Source: Ruegeria marisrubri (lineage in GTDB: Bacteria; Pseudomonadota; Alphaproteobacteria; Rhodobacterales; Rhodobacteraceae). From it: a DNA stretch of 64,000 nucleotides. The notes beneath the pieces were generated by a model. The model saw nothing but the letters and a program-made list of their open reading frames with translations. It had not been told where the DNA came from and searched no databases. A program made the position numbers and the translations under genes. Shown piece by piece: positions 9,487 to 49,768 of this stretch (position 1 is its first letter; each line of letters begins with the position of its first letter). The stretch covers positions 1-64,000 of the forward strand of contig NZ_LQBQ01000001.1 in NCBI RefSeq assembly GCF_001507595.1, read 5' to 3'.

Positions 9487-11066
9487 CGACATGGGCCATT
9501 GTCGCTGACCTGAATCGCTGCGTGGGCTGCCAGACCTGCACCTCGGCCTGCAAACATGCCAACGCAACCGCGCCCGGCGTACAGTGGCGCAAGGTCTTGG
9601 ATTTCGAAACCGGCGAGTTCCCCACCGTGAACCGGGCCTTCCTGCCCGTGGGGTGCATGCATTGCGACGAACCATCCTGCCTGGATGCCTGCCCCTCGAC
9701 AGCCACGCGCAAGCGCGAGGACGGCATCGTCACCATCGACTATGACCTGTGTATCGGCTGCGCCTATTGCGCGGTATCCTGCCCGTATCAGGCTCGGTTC
9801 CGGGTGGACAAGCCGACTGCGGCCTACGGCGGCATGCCGATGCGCCACGAGGCCAAGCGCGAGGATCCGGCCCGGCTTGGCGTGGCGCAGAAATGTACGC
9901 TGTGCGTCGAGCGCATCGACGAAGGGCTTGCCAACGGCCTCGTGCCCGGTGTCGACATGCAGGCGACGCCCGCCTGCGTGGCGTCCTGCATCTCGGGCGC
10001 GCTGCAGATGGGAGATCTGGACGACCCAAACAGCAATGTCTCGACGCTGCTGCGCACCAAGCGCCATTTCCGCATGCACGAGGAACTGGGGAACGGCCCC
10101 AACATCTATTACCTCTATGATGGCGAGATCGACGAAGTGTCCACTCCGAATGCGGTGCCGATGGTGGCCGAGCCGGTGGGGCTGGCGGCGGTATCGCCGA
10201 AACGCCAGACGAACTGGGACTGGCGGGCCGCCGCGAATTTCATCTGCGGCGGCACGGGCACGGGCCTGCTGGCAACGACGATGGCGGCGGGGCTGTTCGC
10301 GCCGGTGCTGTGGCCGGCGGTGCTGGTGGCGCTGGCCATCGTCGCGTCCGGGCTGTTCTGCATCTGGCTTGAAATCGGGCGCCCGTGGCGGTTCTTGAAC
10401 GTGTTCCTCAATGCCCGGTTCAGTTGGATGACCCGAGAGGCGATGGCGGCGGTGCCGTTCTTCGGGTTCGGGGGGCTGTCATGGCTGTTGGGTTCGCCGG
10501 TGCTCGGGGTGCTGGGCGCGTTGAGCGGCTTGGTCTTCCTTTATTGTCAGGGGCGGATTCTGCGCGCCGCAAAGGGGATCCCCGCGTGGCGCCGGCCGGC
10601 GATTGTGCCGTTGATTCTGTTCACCGGCCTGGCCGAGGGGGCGGGCGTGCTTGCGGTGCTGGCCTTCGCAACGGGATGGAGCGCCGCGATCGGCACCAGT
10701 CTGGCGGCCGTCCTGCTGGTTCTGGTGGGGCTCCGTTTCGTGATGTGGCAACGCTACCGCGCGGACCTTGACCGGACCGGCGCCCCCACCGGGACGTTCC
10801 AGGCGTTCGACGCGATGCAGGCCGGGCTGTCGGCGGTGCCGCAGGGCGTCGTGGCCGGCTTGGTCCTGCTTGCGACCTTGGTGCCCACGGGGCAGGGGCT
10901 GCTCTTGGCCCTGGCAGGGCTGGGTGCGGCGGTCACCGGCTGGCTGTTCAAGCACACGCTGATCACAAAGGCCGCATTCACCCAAGGGTACGCGATCAAC
11001 AGGATGCCTGCTCGCGGTGCCGGCAAGAGCAGCCCGGGCGTTCAACCAGGATGGCGCAAGGCCTGA
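9483..11066 (+). CDS. padC-padD: fused iron-sulfur/NrfD-type membrane subunit (PadC-PadD fusion)
   Basis: 527 residues starting at ATG 9483, overlapping the padB stop (ATGA). Residues 1 to about 230 are a four-cluster ferredoxin subunit: C13-x2-C16-x2-C19-x3-C23, then C-M-H-C-D-E-P-S-C, C-I-G-C-A-Y-C-A-V-S-C and K-C-T-L-C-V-E. From about residue 245 the protein becomes a polytopic membrane domain with some eight helices of the NrfD/DmsC anchor type (I-W-L-E-I-G-R-P-W-R). Electrons from the molybdenum subunit would pass through the clusters to the quinone pool. In known pad systems these are two separate proteins. Here the frame is continuous with no stop between them. Confidence 0.85.
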   Translation: MTTWAIVADLNRCVGCQTCTSACKHANATAPGVQWRKVLDFETGEFPTVNRAFLPVGCMHCDEPSCLDACPSTATRKREDGIVTIDYDLCIGCAYCAVSCPYQARFRVDKPTAAYGGMPMRHEAKREDPARLGVAQKCTLCVERIDEGLANGLVPGVDMQATPACVASCISGALQMGDLDDPNSNVSTLLRTKRHFRMHEELGNGPNIYYLYDGEIDEVSTPNAVPMVAEPVGLAAVSPKRQTNWDWRAAANFICGGTGTGLLATTMAAGLFAPVLWPAVLVALAIVASGLFCIWLEIGRPWRFLNVFLNARFSWMTREAMAAVPFFGFGGLSWLLGSPVLGVLGALSGLVFLYCQGRILRAAKGIPAWRRPAIVPLILFTGLAEGAGVLAVLAFATGWSAAIGTSLAAVLLVLVGLRFVMWQRYRADLDRTGAPTGTFQAFDAMQAGLSAVPQGVVAGLVLLATLVPTGQGLLLALAGLGAAVTGWLFKHTLITKAAFTQGYAINRMPARGAGKSSPGVQPGWRKA

Positions 11067-11108
11067 CCCGGCAAGCCCGGGGCGCCGAAGTTCAGGGAGG
11101 AAGAACCG

Positions 11109-12431
11109 ATGCTGGTAACCAACCAAATCGACCCGGGGTTCATGTTCGAGCCACCGGCAGAGACCATGTCGCGCGCCGAGATCGGCGCGCTGCAACTGGA
11201 ACGCCTGCGCTGGTCGCTGGAGCGTGCCTATACCGACGTGCCGCATTACCGCGCGGCCTTCGACAAGGCTGGCGTCACGCCGGCGGATCTGGGCAGTCTC
11301 GCGGATCTGCGGCATTTCCCCTTCACCGAGAAAACCCACCTGCGAGACAATTACCCGTTCGAGATGTTCGCCATGCCGCTGGAGAAGATGGCGCGCATCC
11401 ATGCCTCGTCTGGCACCACCGGCAAGCCCACGGTGGTGGGGTATTCCGCTGGCGATCTTGAACGGTGGGCTGGCCTGATGGCGCGGTCGATGGCGGCGGC
11501 GGGCATCCGGCCCGGGGACCTGGTGCACAACGCCTATGGCTACGGTTTGTTCACCGGCGGGCTGGGCGCGCATTGCGGCGCCGAGAGGCTTGGTTGCGTG
11601 GTCGTGCCGATCTCGGGTGGTGGGACAGAGCGGCAAGTCACACTGCTGCGGGATTTTGGCCCCGGCATCCTGTGCGCCACCCCGTCCTACGCGCTCAACA
11701 TCGCCGAGGTGGCCGAGGTCATGGGGGTCGATATCGCCCGCCTGCCGTTGCGGCGCGGGCTGTTCGGCGCCGAACCGTGGTCGAATGAAATGCGGGCCGA
11801 ACTGGACCGGCGCCTTGGTATCAAGGCGGTCGATATCTATGGCCTGTCCGAGATCATGGGGCCGGGTGTCGCCTGCGAATGCGATGCCGAGCGCGACGGC
11901 CTGCACGGGTGGGAAGACCACTTCCTGTTCGAGATCATCGACCCCGAAACGCAAGAACCGCTACCGATGGGGGAGTCAGGGGAACTGGTGATCACGACCC
12001 TGACCAAGGAAGCGATGCCGATGATCCGCTATCGCACCCGGGACATCACCCGCCTGAGCGACGAGCCCTGCAGCTGCGGGCGCACCCATGTGCGTATCCT
12101 GCGTGTCGACGGGCGCAACGACGACATGATGATCATCCGGGGCGTGAACGTCTATCCCTCGCAGGTAGAGGCGGTGCTGGTGGGCTTCGAAGGTCTGTCG
12201 CCGCACTACCAGATCAAGCTGTTCAAGGACGGGCCGCTGGACGCCATGAGCCTGGATGTCGAGGTCGCCCCGGAAGCCTCGACAAGCCGCGAGGCGCTGG
12301 CGGAAAAGGCGGCGGAGGTACGCCACCACATCAAGTCGACCATCGGGGTGACCTGCGCGGTGAACGTGAAGGCGCCGGGAGAAGTCCCGAGATCCGAGGG
12401 CAAGGCGGTGCGGGTGGTGGACCTGCGCTGA
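11109..12431 (+). CDS. paaK: phenylacetate-CoA ligase
   Basis: 440 residues, the usual length for PaaK/PadJ-type AMP-forming ligases. It shows the P-loop motif S-S-G-T-T-G-K-P-T-V-V-G-Y, the Y-G-L-S-E-I-M-G-P-G motif, R-Y-R-T-R-D, C-S-C-G-R-T-H and the hinge/K-containing tail R-S-E-G-K-A-V-R. It activates phenylacetate (ATP, CoA, AMP and PPi), feeding PadBCD just upstream. An A-G-G-G-A-G-G-A-A ribosome site precedes the ATG. It lies 42 bp after padC-D and ends at the bidirectional terminator 12463-12486. By context it serves the anaerobic pad route rather than the aerobic paa route, since no paa epoxidase genes are present. Confidence 0.9.
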   Translation: MLVTNQIDPGFMFEPPAETMSRAEIGALQLERLRWSLERAYTDVPHYRAAFDKAGVTPADLGSLADLRHFPFTEKTHLRDNYPFEMFAMPLEKMARIHASSGTTGKPTVVGYSAGDLERWAGLMARSMAAAGIRPGDLVHNAYGYGLFTGGLGAHCGAERLGCVVVPISGGGTERQVTLLRDFGPGILCATPSYALNIAEVAEVMGVDIARLPLRRGLFGAEPWSNEMRAELDRRLGIKAVDIYGLSEIMGPGVACECDAERDGLHGWEDHFLFEIIDPETQEPLPMGESGELVITTLTKEAMPMIRYRTRDITRLSDEPCSCGRTHVRILRVDGRNDDMMIIRGVNVYPSQVEAVLVGFEGLSPHYQIKLFKDGPLDAMSLDVEVAPEASTSREALAEKAAEVRHHIKSTIGVTCAVNVKAPGEVPRSEGKAVRVVDLR

Positions 12432-23298: not shown

Positions 23299-24285
23299 TC
23301 AGAGCGGTTTGGAGAGAGAGATCCGTTGCGCGGGCCGGAAGCCTACAGAGCTGAAGTAGCCAATCAGCGGTATATCGTTCCAGTCGACCTCGGTACGTAC
23401 GGTTTCCACCTGCAAGGCCTTGAGATTGGCCATCAGCTTTGCCATCAGGAAACGGCCGATGCCTTGGCCGCGGAAACCGGTGTCGACACCGATCGAGTCC
23501 ATGACGGCCTCCGTGCTGGTGCGGCCGAACTCGCCGTAATCCACGCGTGCCATGATGAAGCCGGCGGGAAATCCGTCCTGTTCTGCCACCAGTGATACCC
23601 GAACGCCGCTTTGATTCAGGGCCTCATCCTGTTTCCGAGAGAAATAGTCGGTTCGCTCGGATCCGGAACTTTCCGCGTCGATCGAGATGATCTTGGCAAG
23701 ATCGGATTCCCTCATGCTGCGTACTGGAACGAAGTCGTGGGACAGCGCGTTGCCGGCATCTCCGTCAGGCGAGCTGTAGTCCAGCTCCAGTGCGTTGGCG
23801 GCGGGGTCGTCCCGAAGTTCATGCGGCATTTCCCTGGTAGTGCGGGTCAGCACCATGCGAGGGGCCATCTTGAAACCGGAATGGGCAAAGAAGCTGAGCA
23901 GCGGCCACTGGTCCCAATCAACCTGGCTGTCAAACTCGGTCACGCCCTTGTGGCGCAGGACCTTTTCAACTTCTTCCAGCAGGCGATGCCCGATACCTTG
24001 TAGCCCGTGATCAGGATTGACGCCGATCGCATCCAGAGAGGCGCTGGCACCTGTTTTGCCGAACTCGCCCTTGTCCAGCTTGGCGAATGCGAAGCCTGCC
24101 AGTTCCTCACCGTCAAAAACTCCGACAAAGACATAATCTCGGGGGTTGTCGATTGCGGCTTGGAGCCGTTTCTCGAAATAGCCGCGTCGAGGCGACCCGG
24201 ACGCGGCCATGTCGATGGCGATGACCGCCTCGAGATCGCTGGGGGACAGGGGTTTTGCGTTGGGTTGGGCCAATGTGTCAGGCAT
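23299..24285 (-). CDS. protein with two tandem GNAT acetyltransferase domains
   Basis: About 328 residues made of two similar GNAT domains. In the first, I-D-M-A-A-S-G-S-P-R-R-G-Y-F-E-K-R leads to D-A-I-G-V-N-P-D-H-G-L-Q-G-I-G-H-R-L-L. In the second, I-D-A-E-S-S-G-S-E-R-T-D-Y-F-S-R-K leads to D-S-I-G-V-D-T-G-F-R-G-Q-G-I-G-R-F-L-M. Both keep the acetyl-CoA binding Q/R-x-x-G-x-G/A loop, so both may bind acetyl-CoA. GNAT enzymes such as RpPat and KatA in Rhodopseudomonas acetylate acyl-CoA synthetases, so control of the island's ligases is a reasonable guess. It lies directly after the hemerythrin gene. TTG 24306 is an alternative start. Confidence 0.75.
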   Translation of the reverse strand: MPDTLAQPNAKPLSPSDLEAVIAIDMAASGSPRRGYFEKRLQAAIDNPRDYVFVGVFDGEELAGFAFAKLDKGEFGKTGASASLDAIGVNPDHGLQGIGHRLLEEVEKVLRHKGVTEFDSQVDWDQWPLLSFFAHSGFKMAPRMVLTRTTREMPHELRDDPAANALELDYSSPDGDAGNALSHDFVPVRSMRESDLAKIISIDAESSGSERTDYFSRKQDEALNQSGVRVSLVAEQDGFPAGFIMARVDYGEFGRTSTEAVMDSIGVDTGFRGQGIGRFLMAKLMANLKALQVETVRTEVDWNDIPLIGYFSSVGFRPAQRISLSKPL

Positions 24286-24302
24286 CTTCGGGCTCGCTGG
24301 TT

Positions 24303-24803
24303 TCAATGGTTGCCGGCATATGCGGCAGACAGTTCCATATCGGTTTCGGGATCCAGAAGATCCTCGAGCGCCGGAACAAGCGCCATTTCTTCCTTCTGAA
24401 TATGGGCGTACATGCGTTCGATCAGTTCGCCGGCCACGTTTCGGAACTCAGTCCATGACTCGTCGGTGAATCCGTTTTCCAACGTGTCACGAGACATTTC
24501 GGCGACTTTGGTTCCCAGCGGCGTTAGCGCGCGGTGTTCCTCGCGCAGGTGTTCCCCGATACCGACATCTCCCATGTCCTCGAGGCGGGTGAAAAGCTCG
24601 GTTTCCTCGAACGCGAAATGCAGGTTGACCTCTTCTTCCAAAGCACCGATTGCCTGTGTCAGAGTGGTCCTGACCCACGCATCGCTGGTGTCGGGTGCCT
24701 TTTTCCGGTGCTTGGCGATCAGCTGATCAAGCGCTTCGATCACGGCGATCGTTTGCTGGTGGTCCTCGTGAAGAAGTTGCGCCGTGCGTCGTGAGAAGGT
24801 CAT
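24303..24803 (-). CDS. hemerythrin HHE-domain protein
   Basis: About 166 residues, predicted all helical. Diiron-ligand type residues are L-L-H-E-D-H-Q-Q-T near the N-terminus, H-F-A-F-E-E-T-E-L-F, H-L-R-E-E-H-R-A-L, and H-I-Q-K-E-E-M-A-L near the C-terminus. HHE proteins bind O2 or NO, or sense oxygen and iron state. The start at 24803 is preferred because the longer ATG at 24842 lies within the operator. The tandem GNAT gene follows immediately on the same strand. An O2/NO-responsive protection or sensing role for the oxygen-sensitive enzymes of the island is inference. Confidence 0.85.
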   Translation of the reverse strand: MTFSRRTAQLLHEDHQQTIAVIEALDQLIAKHRKKAPDTSDAWVRTTLTQAIGALEEEVNLHFAFEETELFTRLEDMGDVGIGEHLREEHRALTPLGTKVAEMSRDTLENGFTDESWTEFRNVAGELIERMYAHIQKEEMALVPALEDLLDPETDMELSAAYAGNH

Positions 24804-24827: not shown

Positions 24828-24847
24828 ATAAATAAGTACCACAATAC
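24828..24847. promoter_or_regulatory. operator copy 3, hemerythrin-GNAT promoter
   Basis: Sequence ATA-AATA-AGTACC-ACAA-TAC, 24 bases upstream of the hemerythrin ATG. On the minus strand TATTGT in the operator arm takes the -10 position. It belongs to the five-member 20-bp palindrome set and lies in strongly AT-rich DNA. Confidence 0.7.
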
Positions 24848-24911
24848 TTAAATAGACTCAACCGGGTTCTGGGGTGCTGCGACATTGCCGCGGAAAGGAT
24901 CATGCGGGCTG

Positions 24912-26177
24912 TTACGGGCGCTTGAGTTTCAAGGCCACGTTGACTGCGAACAGGGCGAAGGACACCGCCCCGGCCGTCCCGGCGACGGCGCCAAGCTGAA
25001 CCAGCCAAACCTGGTTTAGCAGGATGCCGGCGGGGCAGACCGCAAGCGCGGCAAGGTGGCATGCCGCATGCACCCTGAGGGGGGTGTCGGCGGTCAGCTC
25101 AGACAACAGCGGCGGCAAGCCGGATTTGCCGGCGGCATGCATTGAGGCCAGGAACGGCATGATGCGTTGCAGCACGCCGGTCAGGAAGGTCAGCAGCCAC
25201 CCGGCGAGAATGGTGAAACCGGTCAGAGCAGGGGCGTTCGGGATGTCGGCTCCTGCGTACACTGCTCCGGCCAGCAGCAAGCTCAGAACCAGAAAGGCCC
25301 AGGACGTGCGGATCAGGACAAAGGACAGCCCCAACCGCTTTCGCATGCTGGTTTTCAGCGCGGTGCGCATCAGCCACAGATAGCAACCGGCGGCGGCAAG
25401 CGAAGCGGCAAGCGAGATCCAAACCAGCAAGCTGACGCCGAAAAAAAGCCCGCCAGAAAATCCCGCAAGAGCCAATCCGGAAAGGATCATCTGCGCCCAG
25501 CCCGGAGACTGGGGCAGGCTGCGGGACAGGATGAACATCGGGATCAGCACCAGGCTCAGGCCCAGCACCAGGAACCCCATGAACCCGAAACTGGCCAGCG
25601 TCATGTGAATGGTGGCCAGCATCGCATGATCTTCAAGGAACCCGGTTTCGAAATCCCGGATCAGCAGGACGCCAAGCAGGGCCACGAGTACAAGCGAGGC
25701 CAGGGCCAGCCAGCCATGCGCCGAGACCACGGGTATGCTGCCCGCCCGGCGCAGGTTGTCGGCGGTCACCAGAGAAAAGACCGCGAGGCCAAGACAGGCC
25801 AGAATCGCCCCGATCATCATTCCGGTCGAGTCCGCCGCCGCCATCGCGCCGGTCAGCAGCGCAACCCCCGGTAGGAACAGCCAGAAACTCAGCCGCGGCG
25901 GCCAGTCCCGGGCCAGCGGCCGTCGGGTGACCACCGGCAGCAGCTGATAGCTGGCGCCGATCGCGGTCATGGCCATCACGCCGAGCGTGGCAAGGTGGAT
26001 CGCCGCAAGTGTCATGCCCGTGCCGCCGCGAAAGCCGGCCACATCCGGTGCCGCGAACAACAGCGCGATCCAGGCCAGGACGTGGAACAGGGCGGCGGAC
26101 AGGAAAAAACGGAACGGGATCGAGGCCGGCAACAGCCGGTCCTTCGCGCCGCCCAGAAATCCGCCCGGCATGCTCAT
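24912..26177 (-). CDS. polytopic membrane protein, heme-copper-oxidase subunit I/NnrS-like
   Basis: 421 residues with about 12 transmembrane segments. Histidines sit in helices or at their edges: G-M-T-L-A-A-I-H-L-A-T-L-G-V-M-A-M-T-A-I-G-A-S-Y-Q-L-L-P-V-V, then E-D-H-A-M-L-A-T-I-H-M-T-L-A-S-F-G, then M-P-F-L-A-S-M-H-A-A. This recalls small cytochrome-oxidase-I-like or NnrS-like heme proteins, but the family call is tentative. The start ATG overlaps the DUF2249 stop, so it is the last gene of an operon with hcrC-hcrA-hcrB-DUF2249. A role in oxygen/NO handling or quinone redox beside the reductase is inference. Confidence 0.6.
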   Translation of the reverse strand: MSMPGGFLGGAKDRLLPASIPFRFFLSAALFHVLAWIALLFAAPDVAGFRGGTGMTLAAIHLATLGVMAMTAIGASYQLLPVVTRRPLARDWPPRLSFWLFLPGVALLTGAMAAADSTGMMIGAILACLGLAVFSLVTADNLRRAGSIPVVSAHGWLALASLVLVALLGVLLIRDFETGFLEDHAMLATIHMTLASFGFMGFLVLGLSLVLIPMFILSRSLPQSPGWAQMILSGLALAGFSGGLFFGVSLLVWISLAASLAAAGCYLWLMRTALKTSMRKRLGLSFVLIRTSWAFLVLSLLLAGAVYAGADIPNAPALTGFTILAGWLLTFLTGVLQRIMPFLASMHAAGKSGLPPLLSELTADTPLRVHAACHLAALAVCPAGILLNQVWLVQLGAVAGTAGAVSFALFAVNVALKLKRP

Positions 26178-26431
26178 GTCGCGGCCCTCAGGATCAGTCT
26201 CACGCCGTCGGGTTCACACATCGCGTATTCATAGCGCCACCCAAGCTCCTCGAGTTCCGGCAGCAGGAAGATCGGGTTTCGGTCGAAATAGGCGGTGATC
26301 GGCCCGAACTGGCCCGGCCGCCCGATGTGCCACAGGATGGCGACCATCGGGTCGGGCGGGTGCAGGCCGCGGGTATCCACGTGCAGCCCGTCTGCATCCT
26401 GCCATGACGATCCGGGGACCTCGGAGCTCAT
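26174..26431 (-). CDS. DUF2249 domain protein
   Basis: 85 residues carrying the DUF2249 pattern: L-H-V-D-T-R-G-L-H-P-P-D-P-M near the start, F-D-R-N-P-I-F-L-L-P-E-L-E-E-L-G-W-R-Y-E-Y in the middle, and a short beta-rich end. Biochemical function is unknown, although the domain often sits beside hemerythrin and NO-related genes. Both ends overlap neighbours by four bases (hcrB upstream, membrane protein downstream), which indicates translational coupling with 4-hydroxybenzoyl-CoA reductase. Confidence 0.8.
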   Translation of the reverse strand: MSSEVPGSSWQDADGLHVDTRGLHPPDPMVAILWHIGRPGQFGPITAYFDRNPIFLLPELEELGWRYEYAMCEPDGVRLILRAAT

Positions 26432-27396
26432 GTCAACCTTTTGGCCAGGCGGACGGTCAGGGCCGAGATCGACAGCCGCCGGTAATGGGGCGCTATCGTT
26501 GTGGTGCGTTGCGGGGAAACGGCCTTTTGCACCGCCTTTTCCAGTGCCGCGAAGAACGCCTCGGGCGCGCTGTGCGGCGGCAGGTCCCCCGGCACATCGA
26601 CCATAAGGGGCTTCGAGTTGGTGCCGGTGACCGCGACCGAGAACCGGGCCGCGCCCTCGGGCGTGCGTGCGCAGGCGACGGCAACGCCGGCAAGCGGAAA
26701 GTCGATCGACCCGCGCACCCGGACCTTTTCATATTCCGACGCCGCGCCCGGAGGTGGAAGATGGGCAGCGACGAGGATCTCGCCATGCTCAAGCCGGATA
26801 TGGGCGGCGCCGTCCTCGTGGTAGAATTCCGCCAGCGGCAGGCGCCTTGTTCCCTTGGGCCCGGCGATCTCGATCTCGGCGCCATGCACCATCAGGGAAG
26901 GGGCCATGTCGCCGCTGAACGCGGCCCGACAGCGGTTGCCCTGCGGCGCGACATGGCAGGTATCGCCGCGGTATTTCAGGCAGAAATCGTTGGATTTGCG
27001 CCACCAGTGACTCTGGTTGTAATAGACGCACCGTGTGTCGAGACACAGGTTGCCGCCCAGTGTCGCAACCCCGCGATGCGCAGGCCCGGCGACCGAGCGT
27101 GCGGCCTTGGCGACCGCCCGATAGCCGTCGACGATGACCTGTGCCCGTTCGATCTGGGACAATGTGACCCCGGCGCCGATGCGCAGCCCCGCGTCGGTCA
27201 CCTCGATCTCCCGCAACGCGGCGATACCGCTCAGGCTGACCAGTGTCCCGGTCTCCGCAAGCCCCTTGCGCAACTGGACGACAAGATCGGTTCCGCCGGC
27301 GCAGAGCAGGGCATCCGGCGTCTCGTTCAGCAGCGCCACGGCCTCTTCCACGGTGGCCGGTTCCATGAGACGGAAATTCGGCAGGACTTCGGTCAT
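26428..27396 (-). CDS. hcrB: 4-hydroxybenzoyl-CoA reductase beta (FAD) subunit
   Basis: 322 residues of the FAD-binding subunit of the xanthine oxidase family: [11 protein letters not shown], then V-A-T-L-G-G-N-L-C. Residues 118-156 hold five cysteines (C118, C123, C139, C147, C156) in the [10 protein letters not shown] insertion. This extra [4Fe-4S]-binding loop sets 4-hydroxybenzoyl-CoA reductase apart from other family members. The enzyme reductively removes the phenolic hydroxyl of 4-hydroxybenzoyl-CoA using ferredoxin, giving benzoyl-CoA. It overlaps hcrA upstream and DUF2249 downstream. The order gamma-alpha-beta equals hbaBCD of Rhodopseudomonas. Confidence 0.95.
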
Positions 27397-29714
27397 TCTG
27401 CAGCCTCCTTTCGGCGGGCCGCGCGCCGGTACTTGATGAGCGCCTCAAGCAGCCGGTCCGGCGTGACGGGCAGAAAGTTGACGTCCAGCCCGATAGCGTC
27501 GGCCACAGCATTCACGAGGGCGGGCGGAAAGCCCGACAGCGCACCTTCGCCGGCCTCCTTGGCGCCGAACGGGCCAAGCGGGTCGATGCTCTCGACGATC
27601 TGAACGTCGATGGGCGGCGATTCCGCGATGGTCGGGAAGCGGTAGTCCGTCAGGTTGGAATGCGCGGGCAATCCATTGATGTAGTGTGTTTCTTCACAAA
27701 GGCCTTGGCCCATGCCCATCCAGACAGACCCCTCGATCTGGCCTTCCACGGCCAGCGGGTTGATCGCGTAGCCGCAATCGAGCGCGGCCCAGACCTTCTC
27801 GATGTTTATCTGCCCCGTGGCCTCGTCCACGCTGACTTCGACCACCTGCGCGGCATAGGAAAAGCCCATGGTTGAACCCACCGCGCCGCCACGGTGCTTG
27901 CCGCCCTGCGCCTCGACCGGGGTCGAGAACGTTCCCTTGACGGTAATGGTGCCCTCTTTGGCAAGTGCCGCGATTGCGACGTCATGGAAGGACAGCTCGG
28001 ATTGCGAACTGCCCCTGACGAAGAAGGTTTCGCCCTCGCATTCGACATCCTCGGGCGCCGTGTCCAGCAATCCGGCTGCCGCGTCGATCAGCTTGCCACG
28101 CAGCGCCTTGGCGGCCTCGATGGCGGCATTGCCGACCATGAATGTCACCCGGCTGGAATAAGAGCCGTTGTCCTTGGGCGTGATGGTGCTGTCATTGGCG
28201 ACCACGCGGACGCGGCCCAGATCGATGCTCAGCACCTCGGCTGCGGCCAGCGCCACGATGGTCGACGAGCCCTGTCCGATATCCGACGCCCCGGTCAAGA
28301 CCGTCACGCCACCGTCGAAGTCGAGCTTCATGGAGACCACCGCGTGCGGCTCGCCGGTCCAGTGCACCGGCTTGGCCGCGCCCGAGACATAGTGCGAACA
28401 GGCCATGCCAAGGCCACGGCCCTTGCCCAGCTTGCCCTTGCGCTCGGACCAGCCACTGGCCTGCTCGACCCTGTCCAGGCATTCGCCCAACCCGCAGGAG
28501 TTCACCATCAGCCCGTTGGCGGTGAACAGTGGTGGCTTAAGCAGGTTGGCCCGGCGCACAGCGAAGGGATCGAGCCCGAGCTCGCGGGCCATCCGGTCGA
28601 GCATCGTCTCGAAGGAATGGCGCACATCGACGGTGCCGTGCCCGCGCATCGCGCCGCAGGGCGGGTGGTTGGTGTAGACCCGGTAGCCGTCATACTTGAC
28701 GTTGCCGATGTCGTAGATCCCGTGCAGCAGTGCACCCGCATACAGGATCGTGACGACCCCGTATCCGGCATAGGCCCCGCCGCTCATCACCACCTCGCAT
28801 TCCACCGCGGTGATCCTGCCCGCATTGGTCATGCCGATCTTGAGCTTGACCTGGGTGTTCGGGCGGCCGCGATGGGTCAGGAAGCTTTCCTCGCGGCTCA
28901 GCTGCATCATCACCTTGCCGCCGACCTTGCGGGCCAGCAGCGCCGTGATGATCTCGAAGTTCAGGGTTTCGGTGCGCGCCCCGAAGCCGCCGCCGACGAA
29001 CGGTTTCACCACCCGGATGCGCGAGCTGTCCATGTCCAGGCATCGTGCCAGCATAAGGTGAACGTAGAAGGGCACCTGCGTGACCGAGTGAAACGTCAGC
29101 CTGTCGCGCTCTGCGTCGTACTCTGCCAAGGCCGCGTGGGGCTCCATCTGGGCGTGGTTGACCTCGGCGCAGTCGAATGTCTCTTCGCGCACCAGTTCGG
29201 CCTCCTGGAAACCGGCCGCCACATCGCCGAACGTATGATGAACCTCGCGTTCCAGGTTGCCCGGTTTGCCCTCGTGCAGCTGCGGTGCGTCCGGCGCCCG
29301 CGCCTCGGCCGGGGTGTAGCAGGGCGGCAGCTTTTCGATCTCGACATCGATCAGTTCCAATGCGCGCGCCGCGGTGACGGCATCCTGGGCGGCCACCGCA
29401 GCGATCGGTTCGCCGCGATAGCGGACCTGATCGCGCGCCATCGGGTATTCGTTCATCGCGATCGGGATCACGCCATAGGTCTTGTCGCAGTCCTGGCCGG
29501 TGAGCACCGCCCGAACACCGTCAAGAGCCTCGGCGCGGGACGTGTCTATCGAAAGGATGCGCCCATGGCTGACCGGGGCGCGCAGGATCCGGCCGACCAG
29601 CGCGTCGCGTGCGTCCAGGTCAGCTGTGTACATCGCCCTCCCGGTCACCTTCTCGATACCGTCCACCAACGGGACCGGTCGCCCGACCACCTTGGTCTTG
29701 GCTGTCACCATCAT
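27393..29714 (-). CDS. hcrA: 4-hydroxybenzoyl-CoA reductase alpha (molybdenum) subunit
   Basis: 773 residues of the molybdopterin-binding xanthine oxidase family. It contains [39 protein letters not shown] and near the end [12 protein letters not shown], the catalytic-Glu region. It is the catalytic subunit of the HcrABC dimer of trimers, in the cytoplasm. The start at 29714 overlaps the hcrC TGA; ATG 29711 is equally possible. The longer upstream frame lies within hcrC and is rejected. Confidence 0.93.
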
Positions 29715-30181
29715 CGTCTCGCCTCCGCTGCTGCGACCATTATGGACTCGATGATCTTCACATAGCCGGTGCAGCGACACAGATTGCCGCCCAACGCGGA
29801 TTTGATGTCATCCTCGTCAGGATCGGGATTGTCACGCAGAAGCCCCTCGGCAGCCATGATCATGCCTGGGGTGCAGAACCCGCATTGGGTACCGAGGTTT
29901 TCGTGGAACGCGCGCTGGAGCGTCGAAAGCCGACCATTTCTGGCTTGCCCTTCAATAGTTTCGATCTCGGTCCCTGCGCAACTGGCCGTCAAGGTGAGAC
30001 ACGACAAACGCGGGTGCCCGTCCACCAGCACGGTGCAAGCTCCGCACTCGCCGCCGTCGCAGCCCTTTTTCGCCCCGGTCAGTGCCTGTCTTTCACGTAG
30101 AAAATCGACAAGCAGCAGGTTGTCGGGGATGGCTTCCTCGACGGTGCGACCGTTGATGTTCAGGCTGACAATTCGCTTCAT
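29711..30181 (-). CDS. hcrC: 4-hydroxybenzoyl-CoA reductase gamma ([2Fe-2S]) subunit
   Basis: 156 residues with the two [2Fe-2S] domains of the family: [11 protein letters not shown]...C for the plant-type cluster, and Q-C-G-F-C-T-P-G-M...L-C-R-C-T-G-Y for the second. The start at 30181 (M-K-R-I-V-S-L) is chosen because AAAGG lies eight bases upstream and the plant-type fold begins there. The ATG at 30214 lies too near the operator and predicted transcription start. It is first in the hcrCAB-DUF2249-membrane-protein operon, with a perfect TATAAT -10 in operator 4 and a leader of about 44 nt. Confidence 0.94.
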
Positions 30182-30218
30182 GTCGGCAACCTTTTCGCAT
30201 TTCGTGGGCGACAAATAA

Positions 30219-30238
30219 ATAATTAAGTACTATTATAC
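30219..30238. promoter_or_regulatory. operator copy 4, hcrC promoter (also near badL)
   Basis: Sequence ATA-ATTA-AGTACT-ATTA-TAC. On the minus strand the outer arm contains a perfect TATAAT (complement of 30232-30237) suited to transcribing hcrC. It lies in a divergent region with badL to the right. A further half-site-like GTAGTATAG at about 30252-30260 lies on the badL side. Confidence 0.75.
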
Positions 30239-30427
30239 CGAAATAGAAATTGTAGTATAGAAATTTCTCGGCGGCGCGCCCAAAAAGGAGGAGCATCGAA
30301 AGAGCGAACATCAGGGCCATGCAGCGTGCCCGGTTGCAAACCCGTCCTGCTTCACCCTAAAATCCGCATTCTGGTACTACTGCTGAACAATTCGACATGG
30401 CGGGCAATGACACAGGAGTCTTCATTC

Positions 30428-30922
30428 ATGACAGATGCGCCGGAAAAGCGGTTGCTGGAAGAAAGTCTGCGTATCCGCAAGGCGACATCAGAGCACCTTC
30501 AGCATGCCATCGATCTCGACGCGAGAATCACCGGACAGCCAAAGCCCGAATATTGGCAGGATATTTTCGAACGCTACGGTTCGCGGCATGTCGATGAACG
30601 TTTCTTTCTGGTTGCCGAGCCGAGGGATCCGTCCTCTGGCCCCGAGATTCTGGGGCTGATCGTCGGTGAGGTGCGAGGGTGGGAGTTCGGTTCCGAGCCC
30701 TGCGGGTGGGTTTTTGCCGTTTCCGTGGACCCGGATTATCGCCAGCAGGGGATCGGAGAAGCCCTGTTCCAGGCATTGTGCGAGAAATTCAGAGAAATCG
30801 GCATCACCACTGTGCGAACGATGGTCCGACGCCAAGACCCGCTGCACATGTCATTCTTCCGCAGCGAGGGCATGATGGCCGGCCCATACATCCAGATGGA
30901 GTTGAACCTTGAAGACGAATAG
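30428..30922 (+). CDS. badL: GNAT acetyltransferase, BadL-like
   Basis: 164 residues of the GNAT fold: R-K-A-T-S-E-H-L-Q-H-A-I-D-L-D-A-R-I-T-G near the N-terminus, and V-S-V-D-P-D-Y-R-Q-Q-G-I-G-E-A-L-F as the acetyl-CoA binding loop. In Rhodopseudomonas palustris badL (a predicted acetyltransferase) sits beside badM, and the same pair is seen here, which is the basis for the symbol. Its substrate is not known from the sequence; a protein lysine or ligase target is conceivable. The start at 30428 has AGGAG nine to ten bases upstream. Earlier in-frame ATGs (30326, 30407) lack a better site. Confidence 0.75.
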   Translation: MTDAPEKRLLEESLRIRKATSEHLQHAIDLDARITGQPKPEYWQDIFERYGSRHVDERFFLVAEPRDPSSGPEILGLIVGEVRGWEFGSEPCGWVFAVSVDPDYRQQGIGEALFQALCEKFREIGITTVRTMVRRQDPLHMSFFRSEGMMAGPYIQMELNLEDE

Positions 30923-30961: not shown

Positions 30962-31399
30962 GTGCAGCAATCAAGTCGCATAGCCATCTATGCGTTAATC
31001 GAGTTGGCATCCAACCCGGACCGACAGCTTTCGGCCGCTGAAATCGGCGAGAAGTACCGCATTTCTGCTCACCATCTGGCCAAGGTACTCATGACCCTTG
31101 GTCGAGCAGGGCTCGTGAAAGCCACCCGGGGCGTGGGCGGTGGCTACAGTTTCATCGGCAATGCAAAGCGCCTGAACCTGCTTGATGTCATTAGCCTTTT
31201 TGAAGACACGTCCATGGGATGCAAACTCGCCGATCCTTCCACGGCAACGGCCGAGGAATGGGCCCTGTTCGACATCTCGAAGGAAATCAAGGAAATTTCG
31301 ATGTCGACCTATGCTTCCATCACGATTGCGACCATGTTGAAGCAGATCGAACGCCGCAAGAAAGCTGCGGCGGCCAAAAACAAGATTGGAGCAGCGTAG
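30962..31399 (+). CDS. badM: Rrf2-family transcriptional regulator, BadM-like
   Basis: 145 residues. It has the Rrf2 winged-helix layout: S-R-I-A-I-Y-A-L-I-E-L-A at the N-terminus, recognition region I-S-A-H-H-L-A-K-V-L-M-T-L-G-R-A-G-L-V, and wing R-G-V-G-G-G-Y-S-F. Only one cysteine is present (G-C-K-L-A-D), so the three-cysteine iron-sulfur site of IscR/NsrR-type members is missing. It starts at GTG 30962 with GAGG eight bases upstream, 39 bp behind badL. BadM of R. palustris represses the benzoyl-CoA reductase operon. This protein is the best local candidate for binding the five 20-bp operators. Confidence 0.88.
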   Translation: MQQSSRIAIYALIELASNPDRQLSAAEIGEKYRISAHHLAKVLMTLGRAGLVKATRGVGGGYSFIGNAKRLNLLDVISLFEDTSMGCKLADPSTATAEEWALFDISKEIKEISMSTYASITIATMLKQIERRKKAAAAKNKIGAA

Positions 31400-35836: not shown

Positions 35837-37405
35837 TCAGTTCCGTAGCTTGAAACGCTGGATCTTCCCCGTCGCGGTCTTGGGAAGTTCATCGACCGCA
35901 ACAACCCAGCGCGGGTATTTCCACACGCCGATCGAGGTCTGTACATGGATCTTCAGCTCTTCGAGAAGGCCGTTCACCTCACCTGGTTGGTTGAGGACGA
36001 CGAAGGCCTTGGGCTTCACGAGCCCTTCCTCGTCTTCGTGCGCCACGACGGCCGCCTCGATCACCGCCGGGTGCGAAATGATCGCCTGCTCAACCTCGAA
36101 CGGTGACACCCAACGACCGCTGACCTTGAACATGTCATCGGTGCGACCGCAGTAGTGATAGTACCCTTCTTCGTCCCGTATGTACTTGTCGCCGGTCCGG
36201 GTCCACTCGCCCAGGAACGTGGCGCGGGACTTGGCCCGCTGGTTCCAGTAGCCGTCGCCAGCCGACCCGCCCGAAACCAGAAGCTCGCCCATTTCGCCGT
36301 CCTTGACGTCATTGCCATTTTCATCGACGAGACGCAGCTTGTAGCCCGGGAATTCCCGCCCCGAAGTGCCATAGCGGATGTCGTCTGGTCGGTTGGACAG
36401 AAAGACATGCAGCATTTCCGTCGATCCGATCCCGTCGAGGACGCCCACGCCCATGCGGCGTTCCCAGTTTCGGCCGACGTCTTCGGGCAGACCCTCGCCG
36501 GCCGAAATGCACAGGCGCAATCTGTTGGATCCGTTCTCCGGGGTGCATGCGGCGTCAGCAAGCATTGCTGCGTAGAGCGTGGGAACCCCGAAGAAGAGGG
36601 TCGGGTTGAACCGGTGCATCATCTCCAGGACGGACCGTGGTGTCGGACGGTCCGGCAGAAGCACCGCCGTGGCGCCGACCGACATCGGAACTGCCATGCT
36701 AGCGCCCAGCCCGTATGCGAAAAAAAGCTTTGCCGCGCTGAAGCACACGTCATCATGTCGGATTCCCAGAACGTTCCGACCGTAGTTGTCAGCGACATAG
36801 GCGGGGCTGGTATGCACATGGCGGACGCCCTTGGGGGCTCCGGTCGAGCCTGATGAATACAGCCAGAATGCGGTTTCATCCGGATGGGTCCGCGCCGTTT
36901 CGAACGTGTCCCCGGCCTCGGCCATCAAAGAGCTTAGATCCGGGTAACCGGTGCCATCTCCGCCTGACACGATGATGTGCTCGAGGAACGGAAGCTTCCC
37001 GAACAAGGGCTCGACCACCGCAAGCAGCGGAGCGGACACAATGAGCGCCTGCGCGCGGCTGTCTTCCAGCATGTAGAGGTACTGGTCGCCAGTCAGGAGC
37101 GTGTTCAGACAGACCGGCACGATTCCCGCCCGTACCGCGCCCCAGAAAACGCCGGGATAGTCCACTGTATCCAGCATCAGCACCGCGACCCGCGTTTCGC
37201 GGTGTATTCCGAGCCCGGTCAACATGTTGGCGATCTGGTTGGTGGCCGTTTGCAGCTGCGCATAGGTCAAGGTCCGGTGAGGATCGACAAAGGCGTACTT
37301 TTCCCCAAACCCGTTTGAAACGTTGCGGTCCACCATCACTTCGGCGGCGTTGTAGTGATTTGCCCGAGTCACGAAGGCAGCCTCCCAAACCACTTCCGTT
37401 TTCAT
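35837..37405 (-). CDS. benzoate (or 4-hydroxybenzoate)-CoA ligase
   Basis: 522 residues of the AMP-forming acyl-CoA synthetase family, benzoate-CoA ligase branch by overall layout. It has the P-loop Y-S-S-G-S-T-G-A-P-K-G-V-R-H, F-F-G-V-P-T-L-Y-A-A-M-L, D-G-I-G-S-T-E-M-L-H-V-F-L, T-G-D-K-Y-I-R-D-E-E-G-Y and the C-terminal P-K-T-A-T-G-K-I-Q-R with the catalytic Lys (a likely acetylation target). It forms benzoyl-CoA or 4-hydroxybenzoyl-CoA; benzoate and 4-hydroxybenzoate enzymes (BadA, HbaA, BclA) are too similar to separate here. The ATG lies five bases from operator 5 with no recognisable Shine-Dalgarno, so the leader is very short. Confidence 0.87.
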   Translation of the reverse strand: MKTEVVWEAAFVTRANHYNAAEVMVDRNVSNGFGEKYAFVDPHRTLTYAQLQTATNQIANMLTGLGIHRETRVAVLMLDTVDYPGVFWGAVRAGIVPVCLNTLLTGDQYLYMLEDSRAQALIVSAPLLAVVEPLFGKLPFLEHIIVSGGDGTGYPDLSSLMAEAGDTFETARTHPDETAFWLYSSGSTGAPKGVRHVHTSPAYVADNYGRNVLGIRHDDVCFSAAKLFFAYGLGASMAVPMSVGATAVLLPDRPTPRSVLEMMHRFNPTLFFGVPTLYAAMLADAACTPENGSNRLRLCISAGEGLPEDVGRNWERRMGVGVLDGIGSTEMLHVFLSNRPDDIRYGTSGREFPGYKLRLVDENGNDVKDGEMGELLVSGGSAGDGYWNQRAKSRATFLGEWTRTGDKYIRDEEGYYHYCGRTDDMFKVSGRWVSPFEVEQAIISHPAVIEAAVVAHEDEEGLVKPKAFVVLNQPGEVNGLLEELKIHVQTSIGVWKYPRWVVAVDELPKTATGKIQRFKLRN

Positions 37406-37410
37406 AAAAA

Positions 37411-37430
37411 GTATTGTAGTACTAATATAC
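37411..37430. promoter_or_regulatory. operator copy 5, CoA-ligase/pad promoter and divergent SDR
   Basis: Sequence GTA-TTGT-AGTACT-AATA-TAC. On the minus strand TATATT (complement of 37424-37429) fits a -10 for the ligase gene, with transcription starting only about 12 nt before the ATG at 37405. The divergent SDR gene starts at 37538, about 108 bases away. Confidence 0.75.
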
Positions 37431-40040: not shown

Positions 40041-40730
40041 CTAGTCGTCAATAAGCGGGTTAGGGTGTGCGAATTCCTCCAGCGCTTGCTGGTCAAAGAT
40101 GGTTACGCGCCCGCCTTTGCTGGAAACTCCGTGATCTCTCAGGTTTTTGAAGGCACGGCTGAGGCTTTCGGGTGTCATGCCAAGAAACGACGCAAGTCTG
40201 CGTTTTCTGATGCTTAGATCGAACTCGTTTGCCCCACCGGCCCGCTTTTGTTGTCGGAGGATGTAATTGGCAAGCCGTTCCAGAGACGCTCTCAGTTTGA
40301 GATTTTTCGTCGTTTTTACCAACAACCGATAATTCTCCGCCAACTCGGTTACTACCGCGCGCGCGAATTGGGGGTCTTGTTCGAAAACCGTCCTCACGTC
40401 TTGGCTAGGGACCAGAACGATGCGACTCTTCTCAAGTGTCTCGGCGGACATCAGATAGGGTGCATCCTTGATCGATGCGGCAATGATGAACGTCGAGACA
40501 GGTCTGACCGTGGTCATGCTAGTCTCGCGTTCGTTCCAGGTCGCATATAACGAGACCGACCCAGACAGGACGATATGCAAAAAGTCGCTGGGTTCTCCCT
40601 CGCTGACTATTTCCACAAGAGGGGGGAATGTCTGGACATAGGACCCGCGCATTAGAATTTCGAAGTTTTCGTCGCTCATGTCGCGAAACAACGGAAGTTT
40701 TCGAATCTCTGAATGCTCTGATTCGGGCAT
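40041..40730 (-). CDS. narR: Crp/Fnr-family regulator of nitrate respiration, NarR-like
   Basis: 229 residues. An N-terminal cyclic-nucleotide-binding-type beta barrel (residues about 10-130) and a long dimer helix lead to a helix-turn-helix with R-R-L-A-S-F-L-G-M-T-P-E-S-L-S-R-A-F. The E-x-x-S-R in the recognition helix matches the FNR group, which reads TTGAT/TTGAC-type half-sites. The protein contains no cysteine at all, so it cannot carry an FNR [4Fe-4S] cluster. This fits NarR/NnrR/Dnr-type proteins that respond to nitrate, nitrite or NO. It is divergent from narK, with two matching boxes in between. Confidence 0.82.
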   Translation of the reverse strand: MPESEHSEIRKLPLFRDMSDENFEILMRGSYVQTFPPLVEIVSEGEPSDFLHIVLSGSVSLYATWNERETSMTTVRPVSTFIIAASIKDAPYLMSAETLEKSRIVLVPSQDVRTVFEQDPQFARAVVTELAENYRLLVKTTKNLKLRASLERLANYILRQQKRAGGANEFDLSIRKRRLASFLGMTPESLSRAFKNLRDHGVSSKGGRVTIFDQQALEEFAHPNPLIDD

Positions 40731-40774
40731 GGGCGAAGCTCACCTTTTTGTTGGACGCAAAGTCAAGCACTGGC

Positions 40775-40788
40775 CTGACATTTGTCAA
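40775..40788. promoter_or_regulatory. FNR/NarR-type box 1 in the narR-narK intergenic region
   Basis: Sequence C-TGAC-ATTT-GTCAA, nine of ten positions of the TTGAC-N4-GTCAA consensus. It lies 45 bases from the narR start, so it may control narR itself. Confidence 0.65.
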
Positions 40789-40888
40789 GCCCATGTCGGC
40801 CGGTCATCAATTCAGACCTTGATCAAATCACGTTCGCTGTTTGACATTTGCGATATTCCTTTGATTTTCAAGTATTTTTTATCGCTGC

Positions 40889-40902
40889 ATGACTTAGGTC
40901 AA
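40889..40902. promoter_or_regulatory. FNR/NarR-type box 2 upstream of narK
   Basis: Sequence A-TGAC-TTAG-GTCAA, nine of ten consensus positions. Its centre is about 71 bases before the narK ATG. A class II promoter (centre near -41.5) would start at about 40937, giving a 30-nt leader. Confidence 0.7.
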
Positions 40903-40966
40903 GTGCGTTTCCACCCGGTCAATACAGATCTGGCGTGCTTACTGCCGTTCGTGCCGGGAGAAGGGT

Positions 40967-42289
40967 ATGCACACACTCGACGGAGTTTCACGCGGGGATC
41001 AGTATAGAGCCCTAGGGCTCAGCACCTTCGCATTCACTGTTTGTTTTGCCGTTTGGACGATCTTTTCGATCATCGGAGTGCGGATAAAGCAGGAACTCGG
41101 GCTGAGTGACACTCAGTTCGGGCTTCTCGTAGCAACGCCGGTTCTGACCGGTTCCATCAGCCGTATCTTCTTGGGGGTCTGGACGGAACAGTTTGGCGGG
41201 CGGATCATGTTCCCGCTCCAGATGTTGGTGACTTCGGTAGCCGTCTGGCTATTGACCAGTGTTCAGACATACGAGGTCTTCCTTCTGGCAGCGCTGGGCC
41301 TGGGTCTTGCGGGTGGATCCTTCATCATCGGGGTGGCATACACCTCGCGTTGGTTCAAGAAGGAACATCAAGGCACCGCCCTGGGCATCTTTGGGGCCGG
41401 CAACGTCGGGGCGGCCGTCACCAACTTTGCAGCACCATTTCTTGTTGTTGCGGTGGGATGGGAGGGCACCGCGCGCGTCTATGCCGTCGTCCTGGCGGCG
41501 ACAGCCGTGCTGTTCTTCCTGCTGGCAAAAGATGATCCGGTCCAACAGGAACGCAAGCGCAGCGGCGCGCGGCCGGTGTCGGCCGGCACACAGCTCGAAC
41601 CATTGAAGAACATCCAGGTCTGGCGTTTCGCCACCTACTATTTTTTCGTGTTCGGCGCTTTCGTCGCGCTAGCCAGCTTCTTGCCGCGCTACTATGTCGG
41701 CGCATACGGCCTCGAGCTGACCACGGCCGGTGTCTTTGCAGGGCTCTATTCGCTGCCGGGTTCAGTCTTCCGTGCGCTTGGCGGCTGGATGTCGGACAAG
41801 TGGGGCGCACGGTTTGTCATGTATCTGACGTTCATCGTGTCGCTGATCGTGCTCTTCATCATGAGCTATCCGCACACAAGTTACAGCGTGGCCGGCATAT
41901 CGGGGACGATCGAGTTCAGCTTCGGTCTGTCGGTCGGGTTCTTTGTTTTCCTGACGGTAATCCTCGGTTTCGTGATGAGCCTGGGCAAGGCGGCCGTCTA
42001 CAAGCATATCCCGGTTTACTATCCCGACCACGTCGGTTCCGTTGGTGGTCTGGTCGGCATGATCGGAGGGCTTGGCGGTTTCTTTCTGCCGATCCTGTTT
42101 GGTGTGCTTCTGGACTATACCGGAGTTTGGACCGCGCCGTTCATGGCGTTGTTCGTGATCGTCGCCATCTCGACCGTCTGGATGCACGTTGCCATACGTC
42201 GGACTGAACTGGGCCGTCACCCGCAACTGGCTGGGGAGCGCTACCTGTCGGACGTTCCGGACCAGCCTTTCTCCAAATCTGGACACTAG
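40967..42289 (+). CDS. narK1: nitrate/nitrite transporter, NarK1 type
   Basis: 440 residues with about 12 transmembrane helices of the MFS nitrate/nitrite porter family. Family motifs include G-L-S-D-T-Q-F-G-L-L-V-A-T-P, the Arg in L-T-G-S-I-S-R-I-F-L-G, the glycine-rich nitrate signature around G-I-F-G-A-G-N-V-G-A-A-V-T, and G-G-L-V-G-M-I-G-G-L-G-G-F-F. NarK1 proteins are thought to be proton-nitrate symporters that start nitrate respiration. It is first in the narK1-narK2-narGHJI operon. In Paracoccus the two NarK domains form one fused protein; here they are separate genes 63 bp apart. Confidence 0.88.
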   Translation: MHTLDGVSRGDQYRALGLSTFAFTVCFAVWTIFSIIGVRIKQELGLSDTQFGLLVATPVLTGSISRIFLGVWTEQFGGRIMFPLQMLVTSVAVWLLTSVQTYEVFLLAALGLGLAGGSFIIGVAYTSRWFKKEHQGTALGIFGAGNVGAAVTNFAAPFLVVAVGWEGTARVYAVVLAATAVLFFLLAKDDPVQQERKRSGARPVSAGTQLEPLKNIQVWRFATYYFFVFGAFVALASFLPRYYVGAYGLELTTAGVFAGLYSLPGSVFRALGGWMSDKWGARFVMYLTFIVSLIVLFIMSYPHTSYSVAGISGTIEFSFGLSVGFFVFLTVILGFVMSLGKAAVYKHIPVYYPDHVGSVGGLVGMIGGLGGFFLPILFGVLLDYTGVWTAPFMALFVIVAISTVWMHVAIRRTELGRHPQLAGERYLSDVPDQPFSKSGH

Positions 42290-42352
42290 GGCCAACGGCG
42301 GGGTCGGCAAACGGCCCTGTCCCCATACGCTAAATACAAGGAAACCAAGACG

Positions 42353-43744: not shown

Positions 43745-43803
43745 GCATCGATCGCCATCGGGGGCGCGCCTGAGCGCCCTCGCCAAGCCAATAGGAGAAC
43801 ATG

Positions 43804-49064: not shown

Positions 49065-49768
49065 TGGACCGGACACTCAAAGCCTTGTCGCTGATACTGA
49101 GCTATCCTTCACGCGAGCTGCAGGCCGCCATGCCCGACATCGGCGGCGTTCTGGCCGCGGACAGCCGTTTGACGGCTGCCGCGCGCCGTGAACTGCGACC
49201 GCTGGTCGAGGAACTGTCGGGGGGCGACCTCTATGACCTGGAAGAGCGCTATGTGGCGCTCTTCGACCGGTCGCGGACTCTGTCGCTGAACCTGTTCGAG
49301 CACGTCCACGGCGAAAGTCGCGACAGAGGCACCGCGATGGTGTCGCTACTGGAAACCTATCGTGATGGCGGGTTCGAACTCAGCACCACGGAACTGCCGG
49401 ACCACCTGCCGGTGCTGCTGGAATTCCTGGCGACCCGGCCTGCCGAAGAGGCGCGCGAAATCCTGGCCGATGCCGCGCATATCCTCGAAGCGCTGAGTGC
49501 CCGCCTCGAGCGGCGCGAAAGCGCCTATGGTGCGGTCTTTGCGGCGCTTCTGCAACTGGCCGGTGTCGAGGCCGACAAGGAGGCCGTTGCCGAGCTGCTC
49601 GAGCAGCCCGACGACGATCCGAACGACCTCGAAGCGCTGGATGCGGTCTGGGAAGAAAGCGAGATTCGTTTCTCTCCGGATCCGAATGCCGGCTGCCCGC
49701 AGGTGCGCGACATGCTTTCGCGCATGGACGAACCAATCAATCCCGCCCCCGGCGTGGCCGCCGAGTAA
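49064..49768 (+). CDS. narJ: nitrate reductase molybdenum-cofactor assembly chaperone
   Basis: 234 residues of the NarJ/TorD-type helical chaperone family, with L-S-L-I-L-S-Y-P near the start and L-S-L-N-L-F-E-H-V-H-G-E-S-R-D-R-G, the most conserved NarJ segment. It helps insert the molybdenum cofactor into NarG and is not part of the final enzyme. Its ATG overlaps the narH stop; narI follows after 11 bp. The C-terminal tail is acidic with D-D-D-P-N-D. Confidence 0.95.
   Translation: MDRTLKALSLILSYPSRELQAAMPDIGGVLAADSRLTAAARRELRPLVEELSGGDLYDLEERYVALFDRSRTLSLNLFEHVHGESRDRGTAMVSLLETYRDGGFELSTTELPDHLPVLLEFLATRPAEEAREILADAAHILEALSARLERRESAYGAVFAALLQLAGVEADKEAVAELLEQPDDDPNDLEALDAVWEESEIRFSPDPNAGCPQVRDMLSRMDEPINPAPGVAAE

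Follow-up and report, generated by a model that had tools for sequence, protein, structure and literature searches.

In Thermus, expression of the nar genes is controlled by the DUF2249 protein DrpA together with DrpB, and the two have been proposed to be nitrate sensors (PMC6282519). A drpAB double mutant is described as keeping its NarG protein with about one tenth of the activity, and links of DUF2249 to hemerythrin and to heme-copper oxidases were noted before in two papers (PMC11218638, PMC6282519). We analyzed a stretch of 64,000 nucleotides (nt) of Ruegeria marisrubri (contig NZ_LQBQ01000001.1, positions 1 to 64,000; hereafter the window), in which a DUF2249 gene and a gene for a membrane protein follow the genes of 4-hydroxybenzoyl-CoA reductase (HCR). 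Together with a hemerythrin-like gene, these two form a recurrent three-gene module, as judged from 64 public loci that encode a relative of this membrane protein. The most likely explanation is that this module provides protection from nitric oxide (NO), possibly also from O2, and was recruited into an anaerobic aromatic regulon.

The genes lie on the minus strand in the order hcrC (gamma subunit, 29711-30181, from an ATG inside the open reading frame (ORF) at 29711-30214), hcrA (alpha subunit, 27393-29714), hcrB (beta subunit, 26428-27396), the DUF2249 gene (protein P0002, 26174-26431) and the membrane protein gene (P0001, 24912-26177). The original prediction had described these five genes as joined by four-base overlaps, and 4/4 junctions were measured as 4 nt. 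HcrA (1242.4 bits; TIGR03194 cut-off 994.55) and HcrB (417.7 bits; TIGR03195 cut-off 404.55) passed the thresholds of their models, and the top model for HcrC was TIGR03193 (248.2 bits; cut-off 257.8). Overlooked at the time were the hemerythrin-like gene (P0006, 24303-24803) and a gene for a double GNAT acetyltransferase (23299-24306), which continue downstream of the membrane gene on the same strand; many hcr-type relatives have a gene like the latter in their locus. The window's own genome contains one copy each of the membrane gene and the DUF2249 gene.

In all loci with room for it (57/57), DUF2249 occurred directly upstream of the membrane gene (56 by script and L040 on inspection, its ORF start having caused it to escape the script), and in 51/57 the hemerythrin gene followed directly downstream on the same strand. 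The remaining six had hemerythrin on the opposite strand (L049, L055, L066 and L099) or none (L098 and L100). Genes at these loci were called by a simple ORF heuristic, and some were named by sight. Upstream of the module we found hcrB in 21 of the 55 loci with 1.7 kb of upstream sequence, plus L066, so that the hcr coupling was conserved in 22 public loci besides the window, with L105 as one more; a linkage confined to this genome is thereby ruled out. As measured by a script that favoured whichever start was nearest a 4-nt overlap, the start codon was positioned exactly at the 4-nt hcrB/DUF2249 overlap in 19/22 measured loci, and exactly at the 4-nt DUF2249/membrane-gene overlap in 20/21 hcr-linked loci. 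Because the start codons are conserved there, these overlaps are not a product of chance. At the 36 other loci, the DUF2249/membrane junction was 4 nt in 11, 1 nt in 23 and a gap in 2.

We surveyed 385 genomes of the host's class (three equal-sized samples with the same members, taken as one set), 21 of which had HcrA over the cut-off, 16 the membrane protein family and 27 a cytochrome-cd1-type protein (E up to 1e-60). The membrane family was present in 10 of the 12 genomes positive for both HcrA and cd1, in 0/9 of those with HcrA only, in 2/15 of those with cd1 only and in 4/349 of those with neither (Fisher p = 2e-4 among HcrA-positive and p = 4e-4 among cd1-positive genomes). Counted by family, by hand, the first three fractions were 7/9, 0/4 and 2/10 (p of about 0.02 for each contrast). 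The module followed hcrB in only 2 of the 10 genomes (G000 and G428) and was found on a contig different from that of hcrA in the other 8, and the association is therefore not mere linkage. This co-occurrence with cytochrome-cd1-type genes favours the NO protection that had been suggested for the membrane protein. Among the four genomes with the membrane family but neither HcrA nor cd1, two have NirK (G131 and, with a weaker match of 221 bits, G361), and the other two (G241 and G414) are incomplete (88 and 86%) and belong to the same family as the cd1-positive G119. NirK was present in 1/9 of the HcrA-only genomes (G366).

Among genomes chosen for carrying the module, the searches for HcrA and BcrC covered 42 of the 64 loci, and those for cd1 and NirK covered 43 genomes, including the window's own. 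In 29 of these 43, the cd1 match reached at least 480 bits, and the window's genome scored 402 bits. The 36 module genomes without hcrB at the locus (in L050 the contig ends there) included 24 with HcrA and 20 with BcrC over the cut-off, and 9 of the 12 hcrA-less genomes had a cd1 match of at least 480 bits. Copper nitrite reductase was considered as the main partner and rejected, being over the cut-off in 1/43 module genomes and in 3/27 genomes chosen from the class sample.

The midpoint-rooted tree of the membrane protein had two sides, one of 29 rows (23 hcr-linked) and one of 30 rows, none of which was linked to hcr. The six unlinked rows on the hcr side were mostly near other aromatic genes: bcr genes in L052, L086 and L087, pad-like and PaaK-like genes in L091, an acyl-CoA dehydrogenase gene with a GNAT/Rrf2 pair in L083, and ferredoxin- and bcrD-like genes, named by sight, downstream in L050. 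In the HcrA tree, which omitted L010 (the window's own copy) and rows shorter than 600 residues or below 600 bits, the HcrA proteins of module-linked loci clustered together. DUF2249 was absent from the short stretch behind hcrB in 19 other HcrA loci over the cut-off. One of these, L011 in genome G147, has a hemerythrin-like match (85 bits; 3-1526, minus strand) next to hcrB; G147 has no member of the membrane family and, over the short flank of hcrB at this locus, no DUF2249. A full-length relative of the membrane protein was present in just 2 of 101 near genomes, the window's own and G061. The copies of L042 (labelled Halieaceae) and L080 (labelled Stygiobacter) group among alphaproteobacterial ones, possibly as a result of mis-binned contigs or of transfer.

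Outside hcr operons, the same genes have denitrification genes or further genes of anaerobic aromatic metabolism as neighbours, and we therefore rejected the view of the module as hcr-specific. On a plasmid of Azospirillum brasilense Sp7, the annotation runs from cytochrome c and cbb3-type oxidase subunit I through DUF2249, a hypothetical protein (the relative) and hemerythrin to hemA; beyond these come nirJ and a cytochrome D1 gene. From their size and place we take the first pair to be norCB; no NorB or NorC match was obtained for this pair among NCBIfam models, only ccoN, far under its cut-off. G361 has DUF2249 and the membrane gene flanked by a norCB-like stretch on one side and nirK on the other, with two CRP-type genes beside them, and in G131 their neighbours are a CRP-type gene, narK and narG. 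Pad-like genes share the stretch with the module in G061, G244 and G247, and hemA is beside it in G139. At L064, L069, L073 and L094, too, two CRP-type genes adjoin the module (by sight; by Pfam for L069), and in the Rhodospirillales-type loci L064 and L069 they are upstream. As further observations, a small FeS_assembly_P (DUF59-type) protein is encoded beside or inside the module in L086 (9322-9624), L087 (10908-11303) and L143 (9454-9753), with a Pfam match for the L087 copy and naming by sight for the other two, and a second multi-helix-looking protein is encoded nearby in L087 (11377-12504) and L091 (11301-12458), the former with zero Pfam or NCBIfam matches.

The AlphaFold2 model of the membrane protein (predicted local distance difference test score, pLDDT, 93.4) has 12 transmembrane (TM) helices in the fold of oxidase subunit I. 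Its top solved structural match was CcoN (8smr_E; Z 35.5, 388 aligned, root-mean-square deviation (rmsd) 2.9), followed by NorB (4xyd_A; Z 33.5, 378 aligned, rmsd 3.1). The comparison with oxidases that had been proposed thus yielded a predicted heme-copper-oxidase fold. The COX1 match (PF00115; 23.4 bits) stayed under its cut-off of 34.8 and paired residues 21-121 with positions 308-407, further along the profile, an offset that may reflect internal repeats of the fold; the NnrS match (PF05940; 10 bits) was under its cut-off of 28. A PDB sequence search with the membrane family profile gave zero matches, as did one with DUF2249. Earlier naming of this family in the oxidase-superfamily literature may have taken place.

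In oxidases, an HxH in TM10 serves the high-spin and low-spin hemes, and the CuB ligands are a histidine in TM6 and an HH in TM7. With helices assigned by number and not by coordinates, TM10 of the window protein (315-347) has no HxH, its sole histidine being H347 at its end, and TM7 (223-246) has no histidine and so no HH; H191 in TM6 is kept. By helix number only, we take H61 (TM2) to be at the low-spin heme ligand position and H191 at the CuB ligand position. The oxidase likeness originally described stands as far as the modelled fold goes, but most canonical oxidase ligands (TM10 HxH, TM7 HH) are absent, and the protein as a working NO reductase or oxidase was disfavoured for that reason. 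H61, H191 and H347 are invariant in 59/59 near rows (the window and 58 of the 64 loci) and in 27/27 distant relatives; alignment A1 comprised the window protein and 56 of the 64 loci, omitting L057, L059 and L095-L100. H370 and H374 lie early in TM11, and the 27 distant relatives keep H374 in 16 and H370 in 8 cases. Close to them, TM10 ends in an IMPFLASMH stretch that varies little or not at all among the 59 near rows; together with H370/H374 it may form a metal site facing the cytoplasm. Judged by the model, heme binding by the membrane protein is plausible.

The DUF2249 protein matched PF10006 with 32.7 bits (cut-off 29.5), and its model (pLDDT 86.2) has a TusA/SirA-like fold of modest likeness. 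The five top structure matches were all TusA/SirA-type (Z 8.7-9.6; next Z 7.4), as for 3hz7 (Z 9.4, 69 aligned, rmsd 2.1) and 3lvj_C (Z 8.9, 73 aligned, rmsd 2.5), and the best Foldseek E was only 3.4e-3. TusA/SirA sulfur carriers have a conserved active cysteine; a conserved cysteine column was absent from DUF2249 alignments of 18 and 15 sequences. The paired histidines of related DUF2249 proteins (44/49 and 40/49) are Y48 and F49 in the window; the close relatives at L038, L046 and L055 are without both, and those at L041 and L042 without one. The hemerythrin-like protein matched PF01814 (52.2 bits; cut-off 25.3), and its H15, H62, E66, H90, H134 and E138 are kept in 54/54 sequences.

A palindromic operator candidate was found at three positions in the window: between hcrC and a divergent GNAT gene (30225-30240), before the hemerythrin gene (AAGTACCACAATACTT, 24834-24849), and before a benzoate-CoA ligase family gene (37409-37424; the gene at 35837-37405, minus strand). 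With at most one mismatch, the window contains two copies of AAGTAN6TACTT (0.12 expected), one before the hemerythrin gene and one before the ligase family gene. With a matrix derived from the hcrC and hemerythrin regions, 50 sites above 15 bits were detected in 34 hcr-side loci; the 30 other loci and the shuffles gave none. Above 9 bits, this matrix matched 12/15 hcrC, 24/28 hemerythrin and 28/298 other upstream regions, with 3/15 and 4/28 of the first two sets falling below; among 25 of those 28 other regions listed, not all of them traced, many have an intergenic region in common with hcrC or with the hemerythrin gene, or precede a ligase-type gene. A matrix from hcrC sites alone matched, above 10 bits, 22/28 hemerythrin regions versus 9/560 shuffled and 0/31 and 0/21 control upstream regions, and in the window it ranked highest the three sites that precede hcrC, the hemerythrin gene and the ligase gene. 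Divergent from hcrC and upstream of it, on the plus strand, are a single-domain GNAT gene (30326-30922) and an Rrf2-family regulator gene (30962-31399), BadL-like and BadM-like, respectively, by position and pairing only. By analogy with BadM (PMC6191541), an acetamidobenzoate-responsive protein that binds its operator, the Rrf2 protein would be the natural candidate reader of this palindrome. An FNR-type box (TTGATNNNNATCAA) was dropped, with 1 match carrying a mismatch against 1.4 expected by chance.

Elsewhere in the window, benzoyl-CoA reductase (BCR) genes are nearby on the strand opposite to the hcr operon. At 6733-12431 there are pad-like molybdenum oxidoreductase genes and then a phenylacetate-CoA ligase-like gene (624 bits; cut-off 646). 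We take the genes at 6733-9486 to be pad (phenylacetyl-CoA oxidoreductase); no curated model named them in the profile search. Genes similar to the 6733-12431 set share the stretch with the module in L062, L091, L143, L144 and L145. A further region (40041-50484) contains an FtrB-like CRP gene, two NarK-type transporter genes and a nar operon; at L149, narK and narG are close to DUF2249 and the membrane gene.

We judge the chances to be evenly balanced that the module binds or removes NO, possibly O2, and so protects or restores the Mo and Fe-S centres of anaerobic aromatic enzymes in nitrite-reducing cells. The membrane protein would bind heme or another metal at H61, H191 and H347, the hemerythrin would bind NO or O2, and the two would act together with the DUF2249 protein; the protected target may be HCR, a pad-type enzyme or BCR, and the Rrf2 protein would read the operator candidate. 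In a fuller formulation, which we offer tentatively and consider somewhat doubtful, a three-protein guard, made of a repurposed oxidase fold with H61/H191/H347, a cysteine-less TusA-fold protein and the hemerythrin, captures NO or O2 at the membrane and is built into the anaerobic aromatic regulon so that the ring-reducing Mo/Fe-S enzymes can run during denitrification.

Several points weigh against protection from NO. In the co-occurrence statistics, the family counts are the only correction for shared ancestry, and a cd1-positive genome is a proxy, as PF02239 also matches NirF/NirN. The membrane family is missing from 2/12 genomes with both HcrA and cd1, and 13/15 cd1-positive genomes without HcrA have none, so the module is no general NO defence. 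Since 12/36 module genomes without hcrB at the locus have no HcrA over the cut-off, aromatic enzymes are not its sole setting, and the search for BcrC covered module-bearing genomes only, with no background set. No hemerythrin gene turned up next to the DUF2249/membrane-gene pair of G361 or G131. Among the short flanks of 27 distant relatives from the phylum sample, DUF2249 appeared in 1 and a weak hemerythrin match in 14; the full module thus belongs to the nearer family. Catalysis like that of NO reductase is unlikely because the canonical heme a3/CuB ligands are absent, and the case for NO or heme is a computational one, drawn from sequences and predicted models.

It is unlikely that the module instead senses NO, nitrate or O2 and tunes aromatic or nitrate gene expression rather than shielding enzymes. 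The control of nar by Thermus DrpA/DrpB (PMC6282519) is in keeping with sensing, as are the two CRP-type genes beside the module in L064, L069, L073, L094 and G361; however, hcr-type loci have the BadL/BadM-like pair nearby instead, and none of the three window proteins has a signalling output domain according to Pfam. That DUF2249, with its modelled TusA-like fold, and its partners help to load or sulfurate a Mo centre is a good deal harder to credit. Mo enzymes (hcr, pad-like, nar) are among the neighbours, and the Thermus drpAB mutant combines retained NarG with lowered activity, but what we take to be the TusA cysteine has no conserved counterpart in DUF2249, and several neighbours (nor-like, nirK, hemA, bcr) encode no Mo enzyme.

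The membrane redox partner of the original prediction, which would pass electrons between the quinone pool and the reductase, appears improbable. Nothing was found in its favour besides the predicted oxidase fold, whose two histidine groups would point towards opposite membrane sides by helix position, and the tight coupling to hcrB. Against it, only the TM2 position is kept of the two that we take to hold low-spin heme ligands, 11/21 HcrA-positive genomes of the class are without the membrane protein, and the module also adjoins nor-like, nirK, nar and bcr genes. We favour protection from NO over a redox partner because the set tracks aromatic reduction combined with nitrite reduction, and adjoins denitrification genes in several places where aromatic genes are not its neighbours. 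We give least credence to a function in heme or iron handling for denitrification, kept near hcr by chance: hemA is beside the module in A. brasilense and G139, but the conserved 4-nt overlaps, and an operator candidate that the module has in common with hcrC and the ligase gene, speak against chance.

Aromatic-degrading denitrifiers make NO in the same cell as Mo- and Fe-S-dependent enzymes, and the survival of such enzymes under NO appears little studied in the literature searched. If protection from NO is the correct reading, the three genes and the operator make this question testable by knockout, and the DUF2249/oxidase-fold/hemerythrin set would gain its first testable role. We found no description of this gene set in the literature searched, outside of which most subscription papers fell, and, in the same literature, no gene link between hydroxybenzoyl-CoA reductase and hemerythrin.

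Among known systems, BadL/BadM of Rhodopseudomonas palustris resemble the regulatory pair in that a benzoate cluster there places a GNAT gene beside an Rrf2 regulator (PMC6191541), a likeness limited to Rrf2 family and gene pairing. The RIC/YtfE iron-sulfur repair proteins are also hemerythrin-type and match weakly (TIGR03652 26.5 bits; YtfE E 0.4), but the window protein is far under the TIGR03652 cut-off of 204.7 bits. NnrS binds heme and copper. It is matched weakly by 8/57 members of the membrane protein family (PF05940, best E 1.3e-4), whereas the window protein has DUF2249 and hemerythrin as its gene partners. The DUF2249 proteins of haloarchaea and DrpA of Thermus are likewise near denitrification genes; in the window, by contrast, DUF2249 accompanies an oxidase-fold protein and a hemerythrin in an aromatic operon, and Y48/F49 replace the paired histidines. 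With the heme-copper oxidases CcoN and NorB, the membrane protein shares a nearly full-length predicted 12-helix fold and histidines in TM2 and TM6; unlike them, it has neither the TM10 HxH nor the TM7 HH, falls under the COX1 cut-off, and carries the extra invariant H347.
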